NCBI GenBank assembly: GCA_028285315.1
Contig: JANQPU010000118.1
Span: forward strand, 1 to 52,906
Length of the DNA stretch: 52,906 nucleotides
From: Acaryochloris sp. IP29b_bin.176
Lineage (GTDB): Bacteria > Cyanobacteriota > Cyanobacteriia > Thermosynechococcales > Thermosynechococcaceae
Reading direction: 5' to 3'
A program made the position numbers and the translations under genes. The notes below the pieces were generated by a model that saw only the letters and a list, made by a program, of their open reading frames with translations, ran no database searches and had not been told where the DNA came from. Positions 5,053 to 7,578 of the stretch are shown here, in pieces (the stretch's first letter is position 1; each line of letters opens with the position of its first letter).

Positions 5053-7578
5053 TTAACCTTCAAAGTGAGGTCCTTCAATAGGCATCACTGTTTCTAGCTG
5101 ATCGATAGACGTCTGCATCGATTGGGCTTGAGTCTTAAGAAGCTGCAAAAACTGGCTTACCTCAAAAACTTGATGGCTTGCCATTGAGGATGTTTGGAGG
5201 TGACTACTGACTAGTTGAGTGATTCTTACGATCTGAGTATTGAGTTGAGTAATCTCGGTATTTAGATTGGAGGATAGCTGCTCAGGTCGGAAGGATTGTC
5301 CCGAACTGCTGCTTGTTTCTCGGGTTAGAGGTTCCAGAATCGCTGTTTTTTGTTGAAGATCCCGTTGCAAAGACTCGATTAAGGGCTTCATTTGGGTTAT
5401 GTTGTCGTCCAACTTCTGAGCGATATTGCTGATGTTCTTGGCGACACTGAACACTTCTTGCTGGGAACCGGAGTCCTGCGTGGCTTTAACAGCGATATTC
5501 TTCGCCTGCAACTGAATCTGAGAGGAGAGCTGGCTAACCAGAATGCGGACTTGAGAAATCTGCTGCATGGGTTTCTCAAGTTCCTGAAGCTGAGTGACAG
5601 CTGCCTGAGCTACCGTTGGCATTTGGTGTGGGTCATTAACCGATTGATTGAGATGGTCATTAACCGATTGATTGAGATGTTCTTGAGCTGTTTCCACTTG
5701 GGCCAGAATCTGATGGCTATGAGATTGGAATTGCCTTGTGATGGTGTTGAGGTCTTGGGCGAAATCTATGATTGTTTGTAGGAGCGTATAAGCTGATTGG
5801 GCCGTTTCTAAATGTTGATGAGTTCCTTGGATCAAAAACTGAAGGCTGGGTCGATTGGCTCGGAGATACTCCAAGAGTTGATGTTTGAGGGTTTGAAGCT
5901 GCTGATTGCCTGCCTGTGTTTGAGTCGTATTTGCGACCCAATCCTGTTCTGTTCGAGTCAGGATGTCGGCTTGTTCCAGCGCATGACCGACTTGGATGCC
6001 GATTTGAGTCAAGAGATCTATCTCAGTGGGGTGCCACGTTCTTGGCCCCGAACACTGATGAGCAATTAATAATCCAAATAAATGATCTTCCGTGAGAATA
6101 GGAACCACCAAGTTGGCTTGCACACCATAGGCTTCCAGCTGTTGAAGGTGACAATCCGTTAGGCCAGCCTCATAGACATTATTGATGGCTTGGACCCGCC
6201 CAGTCCGATATTGTTCAACGTAACCTTCTGCAAAGCATGGATCTGAAATCTTGGCCCACAACATTTTGGCAATACCCGGTTGCACTGCTTCAGCAGCAAC
6301 GGTTCCGTACCAATTTTCATCAAAGCTGTAGACAATGACGCGGTCTGCTCTGAGAACTTTGCGACTCTCTTGGACCGTAGTAGCGAGGATCTCTTCTATT
6401 TGTAATGATCCTCGTATACGCTGCGTCAGACCCATCAACATCTGCAATTGATTGACTTGGCTATCAAGCTGACTCATCATTCGAGCCCGGTCTAAGGCAT
6501 AGCCGACTTGTAACGCTAATTGTCTGAACAATTCAATTTCGGATGGATTCCAATCCCTGGGTCTGGCGCACTGGTTAGCACATAATAGACCAAACAGTTC
6601 GTCATTTTGGAGGATAGGAGCCACGATATTGGCTTTAATCGCAAATCTCTCCAACAATCCAATATGGCAATCGTTCAGCCCCACCTTGTAGATATTGTCG
6701 ATCGCCCGCACTCGACCCTGACGATATTGCTCCTGATACCCTTCTTTAAAACACGGTTCCACTAGGGATGACCATAATAATTTGGGATAGCCAGGAGCCA
6801 CAGATTCTGCAACAAAGGTGCCATCACCGTCTGGGTCCAAAGCAAAGATAGTCACGCGATCAGTCTGTAAGATTTGACGGACCTCTTCCACGCTTGTTTT
6901 CAACAAATCTTCTTCGGAAAGTGCAACATGGAGTTGACCAATAAATTGCATCAACAATTCTGCTCGGGCCGCTTCATGTTCTTGAAAATGCATGAGGCTG
7001 GGTACCTGGGCGTCAATCAGGCTGATATTATTCGCGAGATCCAATAACTCGTCATTACTCCCTCTTTCTATCTCTGACCCGGTTTCTTGTCGATATAGCC
7101 GATTCACCAATTGATTAGAATGCTGAGCTGCCTGGCGAAGGGGACGTAGCTCACGATTGATTAACCAAATGGCAAGACTCCCCGATAGGATGGCCATAGC
7201 GCCTGTACCCAAAAGCAAGGGAGGGATACGGTTCTGTAACGTGGTCTGGGCTTTATCCCAATTGGCTGAGTTTGTGGGTCTGGTGGTACTCAGCTGTTCA
7301 TTGAGCATCTCGCCGGTGAAGTAGGTCGCGGTTCCCACAACTAGAACGGGTAATGAGCTCAAAGCAATGACCCAAGCAATTAATCTTGCTTTGATTGAGG
7401 TGAAATGCTCTCTTTGGGTAGAGGGCTCTTTCGGGCTTTTTTGCTCTGCATATCCCCCTGAATTGGGCACAGAAGAAACAGACTCTACTTGCTCTGATCC
7501 AGAAGGGGGAAGAGATGGCGGCGTCACGGTGCATACCTCGTGGCTAGATGATGTTAATTCTGTATTTCCGCAATTCAA
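5053..7578 (-). CDS. Membrane sensor with two DXCF-type cyanobacteriochrome GAF domains
   Basis: An 841-residue protein (numbered from a TTG at 7578; a GTG at 7527 with GAGG eight bases upstream may be the true start). Order: cytoplasmic N-terminus, membrane helices about 66-87 and 118-140, a HAMP-like linker to about 200, GAF1 about 218-365, GAF2 about 395-540, then a long coiled coil. Each GAF has a Cys-His pair typical of the bilin-binding site (NDCHIGLLE, Cys304; TDCHLQQLE, Cys476) and a second Cys in a DXCF-like motif exactly 28 residues earlier (EPCF, Cys276; DPCF, Cys448). In DXCF cyanobacteriochromes such as TePixJ the two cysteines have the same spacing and hold phycoviolobilin. The C-terminus (about 560-840) aligns only loosely with a chemoreceptor signalling hairpin and lacks its conserved tip. 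A PixJ-like phototaxis or light sensor is inferred; bilin binding is untested. Confidence 0.75.
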   Translation of the reverse strand: MNCGNTELTSSSHEVCTVTPPSLPPSGSEQVESVSSVPNSGGYAEQKSPKEPSTQREHFTSIKARLIAWVIALSSLPVLVVGTATYFTGEMLNEQLSTTRPTNSANWDKAQTTLQNRIPPLLLGTGAMAILSGSLAIWLINRELRPLRQAAQHSNQLVNRLYRQETGSEIERGSNDELLDLANNISLIDAQVPSLMHFQEHEAARAELLMQFIGQLHVALSEEDLLKTSVEEVRQILQTDRVTIFALDPDGDGTFVAESVAPGYPKLLWSSLVEPCFKEGYQEQYRQGRVRAIDNIYKVGLNDCHIGLLERFAIKANIVAPILQNDELFGLLCANQCARPRDWNPSEIELFRQLALQVGYALDRARMMSQLDSQVNQLQMLMGLTQRIRGSLQIEEILATTVQESRKVLRADRVIVYSFDENWYGTVAAEAVQPGIAKMLWAKISDPCFAEGYVEQYRTGRVQAINNVYEAGLTDCHLQQLEAYGVQANLVVPILTEDHLFGLLIAHQCSGPRTWHPTEIDLLTQIGIQVGHALEQADILTRTEQDWVANTTQTQAGNQQLQTLKHQLLEYLRANRPSLQFLIQGTHQHLETAQSAYTLLQTIIDFAQDLNTITRQFQSHSHQILAQVETAQEHLNQSVNDHLNQSVNDPHQMPTVAQAAVTQLQELEKPMQQISQVRILVSQLSSQIQLQAKNIAVKATQDSGSQQEVFSVAKNISNIAQKLDDNITQMKPLIESLQRDLQQKTAILEPLTRETSSSSGQSFRPEQLSSNLNTEITQLNTQIVRITQLVSSHLQTSSMASHQVFEVSQFLQLLKTQAQSMQTSIDQLETVMPIEGPHFEG
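5631..5678 (-). repeat. Perfect 24-bp tandem duplication inside the GAF sensor gene
   Basis: The 24-base unit at 5631-5654 is repeated without change at 5655-5678. It keeps the frame and duplicates eight residues (HLNQSVND) in the coiled-coil region. Being perfect, it is probably recent, and it could expand or contract by slippage. Confidence 0.9.

Follow-up and report, generated by a model that had tools for sequence, protein, structure and literature searches.

A conserved orphan PixJ paralogue of Acaryochloris with tandem DXCF-type GAF domains and a degenerate kinase-contact tip

The gene analyzed here lies in a window of 52,906 nucleotides (the whole stretch studied, contig JANQPU010000118.1 of Acaryochloris sp. 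IP29b_bin.176) and raises the question of whether two neighbouring DXCF-type cyanobacteriochrome (CBCR) GAF domains in one membrane protein both sense light and, if so, where the signal goes. The frame of 841 aa at 5053-7578 on the minus strand was open throughout. We placed the translation start probably at GTG 7527 rather than at TTG 7578, as given by the original prediction, because GAGGT precedes it at 7539-7535 and the frames of two congeners stop short of the TTG; the product is then 824 aa. No NCBIfam family exceeded its cut-off for the protein, and a promoter search upstream of the gene gave nothing above chance. The features are as follows.

5053..7527, minus strand: orphan gene for a PixJ-like cyanobacteriochrome, with coding probably starting at GTG (824 aa)
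7535..7539, minus strand: probable ribosome-binding site GAGGT, 7 nt before GTG, kept in two congeners
7315..7383, minus strand: transmembrane helix 1, residues 66-88 (hydropathy)
7159..7227, minus strand: transmembrane helix 2, residues 118-140 (hydropathy)
7009..7167, minus strand: HAMP-like linker, residues 138-190 (weak match to Pfam HAMP, under the cut-off at E 0.18)
6475..6972, minus strand: GAF1, DXCF-type CBCR domain, residues 203-368 (Pfam, GAF tree, PDB match)
6748..6759, minus strand: EPCF motif of GAF1, E274-F277, with second Cys C276 (alignment)
6664..6669, minus strand: canonical Cys-His of GAF1, C304-H305 (alignment)
6574..6576, minus strand: N335 of GAF1, position of TePixJ H553 (alignment)
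5959..6456, minus strand: GAF2, DXCF-type CBCR domain, residues 375-540 (Pfam, GAF tree, PDB match)
6232..6243, minus strand: DPCF motif of GAF2, D446-F449, with second Cys C448 (alignment)
6148..6153, minus strand: canonical Cys-His of GAF2, C476-H477 (alignment)
5089..5946, minus strand: degenerate helical hairpin of MCP origin, residues 545-830 (colinear with the MCP domains of PixJ proteins; MCPsignal score under the cut-off)
5413..5511, minus strand: site of the lost tip for CheA/CheW contact, residues 690-722 (NIAVKATQDSGSQQEV vs NAALEAARAGAAGQSF in the PixJ of the same genome)

Two GAF domains were detected by Pfam (PF01590, 4e-42). Among PDB cyanobacteriochromes, GAF1 matched the chain of a TePixJ-type crystal at 3e-36, and the full-length protein reached 6e-41 over its GAF2 stretch, so that the CBCR identity is not a chance match. 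As originally predicted, both domains carry a Cys-His site with a DXCF-type second Cys 28 residues earlier (C276/C304 and C448/C476), which is the spacing of TePixJ (C494/C522; PMC6955287), and GAF1 reads E274-P-C276-F, with Glu for the motif Asp. The presence of two adjacent DXCF domains in one membrane protein was likewise borne out, both GAF domains keeping the Cys pair, the His that follows the canonical Cys, and N535 (TePixJ numbering). In the alignment to TePixJ, a characterised DXCF domain, GAF2 was identical at seven of seven key pocket positions (D492, C494, C522, H523, Q526, N535 and H553) and GAF1 at four of seven (both Cys, H523 and N535), with the changes D492E, Q526L and H553N. 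The non-Cys pocket set (D492, H523, Q526, N535, H553) is thus complete in GAF2 and reduced to H523 and N535 in GAF1. Leu at position 526 is common to the whole GAF1 clade, and Asn at position 553 is shared with three related GAF1 domains and, as aligned, with PDB 6oap. Upon photoexcitation of TePixJ, D492, Q526, N535 and H523 are among the residues reported to shift or to approach the bilin (PMC6955287). Since GAF1 differs at three pocket positions, two equivalent blue/green cycles are not to be assumed. Judged by its pocket residues, GAF2 should be a confident candidate for a TePixJ-like blue/green cycle, and GAF1 is likely to be a bilin binder of uncertain colour. Of the two photocycles first proposed, that of GAF2 is supported as a prediction, and a distinct cycle of GAF1 was not established.

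The EPCF variant was found in the window genome only, the other five copies of the gene all reading DPCF in GAF1, and Glu at position 492 occurred in one of 51 aligned GAF domains, the GAF1 of the window. Close to it, V replaces H one residue before the motif, and the IAHQC motif has C in place of I and N in place of H; the V and C changes each require two or more base substitutions, which a single error in a read is unlikely to explain. The ortholog of another genome (L054:6645-9149, G005) shows the reverse of this drift, its GAF2 lacking both Cys (DLGF, DRH) and its GAF1 keeping both. When we searched 291 genomes, the EXCF pattern gave mostly non-CBCR proteins, with about 34 GAF-like by eye among the matches listed, and the DXCF pattern was matched in 244 of the 291, often several times per genome. 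As far as these patterns tell, Glu at the DXCF Asp position is rare but recurrent. The GAF1 pocket E492/L526/N553 (TePixJ numbering) offers a test of how much DXCF drift is compatible with photocycling.

The closest published work is that of Hasegawa et al. 2018 on the DXCF CBCRs of A. marina, which reportedly covers seven DXCF domains and a GDCF variant that serves as a power sensor for blue light. PixJ proteins with one to five GAF domains have been described (PMC13383048), and complete DPCF pairs were found in series in other PixJ proteins, five in one genome (G038) and six in another (G033). Tandem complete DXCF pairs are a common PixJ arrangement and not special.

We then considered the output domain. 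The C-terminal 290 residues are the remnant of an MCP signalling domain and can be aligned over their full length with the MCP domains of PixJ proteins. MCPsignal scored 26-33 bits in the window protein vs a curated Pfam cut-off of 34.6, compared to 64 bits in the operon PixJ of the same genome; none was reported at 1e-3 in the other orphan copies. At the tip, the PixJ of the same genome reads QLQAMNAALEAARAGAAGQSFAEIAEKVHGLSRQLD and the window protein QLQAKNIAVKATQDSGSQQEVFSVAKNISNIAQKLD. In all six orphan copies, Ile replaces the Ala that follows N/T, E is changed to K and R to Q, and the tip E, R and glycines, kept by the operon PixJ, are gone in all of them, while the rest of the MCP domain can still be aligned. 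The coil also carries one-armed indels of 7-8 residues; in functional MCPs, length changes are known to occur in matched pairs. One of these indels, a perfect 24-bp tandem duplication at window positions 5631-5679 that is absent from the other copies, repeats HLNQSVND in one coil arm. A structure model of the MCP domain (pLDDT 78, pTM 0.66) consisted of long helices, and the best Foldseek matches of this monomer were mostly chemoreceptors, with poor overall superposition; a whole-protein structure built from six orthologs was set aside (mean pLDDT 42). Because CheA/CheW binding and trimer contacts of known chemoreceptors lie near the tip (PMC4692393), which is lost here, the direct coupling of the orphan to CheA/CheW, and with it direct kinase control, has probably been lost.

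A tail search of 291 cyanobacterial genomes returned one further tip-lost orphan CBCR (G206) and one in-operon PixJ with an altered tip (L123:4177-7161, G164). In the tip of the latter, K replaces E and S replaces R; this protein is otherwise PixJ-like, and a PixL-like gene follows. Since this altered tip lies inside a pix operon, single tip changes are no proof of uncoupling and need not abolish function.

The genomic context also bears on the question of output. The window gene is flanked by genes for a DUF2062 protein, TsaE, a short-chain dehydrogenase, a HEAT-repeat protein and an NAD-binding protein, and no che or pix gene was found near it. None of the six orphan copies belongs to a pix operon (CheY-CheW-MCP-CheA); the G003 copy has a CheW/MCP cluster approximately 3 kb away, which was not seen beside the others. 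The single-GAF operon PixJ of the window genome lies on another contig (L044:8609-10738), with a normal tip and a PixL-like gene following it, and five CheA-type or CheW-type gene clusters are found elsewhere in this genome. These clusters could serve the orphan if it were simply another PixJ phototaxis receptor, both of its photocycles working and its signal still passing through CheA/CheW despite the divergent tip (a reading that carries the original prediction on to the output), as its PixJ-like architecture and the altered tip retained in the G164 operon would also allow. We hold this to be quite unlikely, given the loss of the tip E, R and glycines in six of six copies while the operon PixJ keeps them, the one-armed indels, the altered GAF1 pocket and the lack of a nearby che gene.

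Among the genomes searched, the orphan was found only in Acaryochloris, in five of seven genomes, one of which holds two copies, carried by different contigs of 2.0 Mb and 313 kb; plasmid records yielded no ortholog. Rough dN/dS values (Nei-Gojobori, where dS was computable; dS was near saturation) were approximately 0.04-0.11 for GAF1, 0.05-0.23 for GAF2, 0.11-0.22 for the coil and 0.09-0.20 for the tip, and all regions of the gene look to be under purifying selection. Coil identity between the window genome (G000) and G002 was 63%, compared to 85% for the operon PixJ tail of the same pair; on these identities, the orphan coil is evolving faster than the operon PixJ tail, yet is still constrained. 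The gene could be a decaying paralogue without present function and heading for loss, to which the Cys-less GAF2 of G005, the pocket drift of the window GAF1 and the absence from two of seven genus genomes would point. This is however highly improbable: the six frames are intact, two of them in a single genome but on different contigs, all regions show dN/dS values well under 1 with the lowest in GAF1, four of six copies retain both typical DPCF Cys pairs, and the two genomes without the gene are incomplete (82% and 87% complete).

Searching the window draft gave no ferredoxin-dependent bilin reductase. Most likely the gene is just missing from the assembly; we rejected its biological absence, because all six congeners have one and this 5.35-Mb draft is 87% complete.

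In a tree of 51 GAF domains, the orphan GAF1 grouped with the GAF1 of three-GAF PixJ proteins (100/98), and the orphan GAF2 was sister to the single GAF of the Acaryochloris operon PixJ (90/85). These placements suggest an old duplication of PixJ followed by complementary losses, in which one copy kept the kinase tip and the other both light sensors.

We favour, with moderate confidence, the reading of the orphan as a conserved PixJ paralogue that would sense light, would have lost direct CheA/CheW coupling and would signal in another way. The membrane-anchored protein would be a dimer. GAF2 would bind a phycocyanobilin-derived bilin and switch between two states, a blue one in which the second Cys is attached and a green one in which it is free; GAF1 would probably bind a bilin covalently, with its colour, efficiency or dark stability shifted by the altered pocket. 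From the GAF domains the signal would travel down the coil, no longer reaching CheA/CheW via the tip, and the output would be made by protein contact, on another receptor (for example the operon PixJ, in mixed complexes) or on some other partner. We favour it because of the pocket match (7/7 in GAF2, 4/7 in GAF1), the tip replaced in six of six copies, the MCPsignal score under the cut-off, the lack of a nearby che or pix gene, the one-armed indels, dN/dS well below 1, a GAF tree that fits duplication with complementary loss, and the bilin reductase of six out of six congeners. Counted against it were the altered tip in the G164 pix operon, the chemotaxis cluster near the G003 copy, the monomer model superposing poorly on chemoreceptors and the missing bilin reductase of the draft.

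The most specific version of this explanation is a light-gated modifier of the operon PixJ, in which mixed dimers or clusters with intact PixJ would lower or retune its kinase control. Both paralogues are retained in the same genomes, the orphan GAF2 is sister to the operon PixJ GAF, and the layout of membrane helices, HAMP-like linker, GAF and coil is colinear between them. Nevertheless, trimer contacts are normally made at the tip lost here (PMC4692393) and tail identity to the operon PixJ is just 15-16%, and we consider this version unlikely.

Beyond the known tandem arrangement, and outside the scope of the original prediction, the less expected feature appears to be a conserved, selected photoreceptor paralogue apparently cut off from the chemotaxis kinase. 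CBCR-MCP proteins are usually assumed to act through CheA/CheW, and a branch would be added to CBCR-MCP signalling by a conserved paralogue whose light sensors look intact and whose kinase tip is missing. It would also provide a natural experiment, with sensor and output split after duplication and the complementary partner in the same genome.

Overall, the orphan shares with pix-operon PixJ proteins (that of the same genome, TePixJ, and Synechocystis PixJ1/TaxD1) two transmembrane helices, one or more DXCF GAF domains and an MCP-derived C-terminus (PMC5812497), and with TePixJ the pocket of its GAF2. It differs from them in lying outside a pix operon, in lacking the kinase-control tip and in having two complete Cys pairs; the operon PixJ of the same genome has one GAF domain compared to two, and in Synechocystis PixJ1 the bilin is bound by GAF2 only (PMC5812497). 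The three-GAF PixJ proteins of Hydrococcus, Acaryochloridaceae RU_4_10 and relatives (L064, L056, L055, L057) have a GAF1 sister to that of the orphan, although, unlike it, they lie in pix operons with an intact tip and a third GAF, and some GAF1 domains of three-GAF PixJ proteins read DACL, DTCL or DPCL. A short MCP-like membrane protein (L124:3246-4661, G014), whose tip is of the PixJ type and which has no GAF, is encoded beside a PixL-like gene, in a genome that also has a three-GAF PixJ. The G206 orphan CBCR (L125:7425-11060), whose neighbours are ClpB and small heat-shock-like genes, resembles the window orphan in its several DXCF GAF domains, its orphan locus and its degenerate MCP tip. 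By contrast, it belongs to another cyanobacterial family and has another tip sequence, and its frame opens with a GAF-like domain and seems to lack N-terminal membrane helices. These differences suggest that its tip loss was independent of that in Acaryochloris. Tip-less orphan cyanobacteriochrome-MCPs may, we tentatively propose, form a recurrent class of photoreceptors, in which, once PixJ had duplicated, the chemotaxis domain became a light-controlled coil signalling independently of CheA/CheW, with at least two origins (Acaryochloris and G206).
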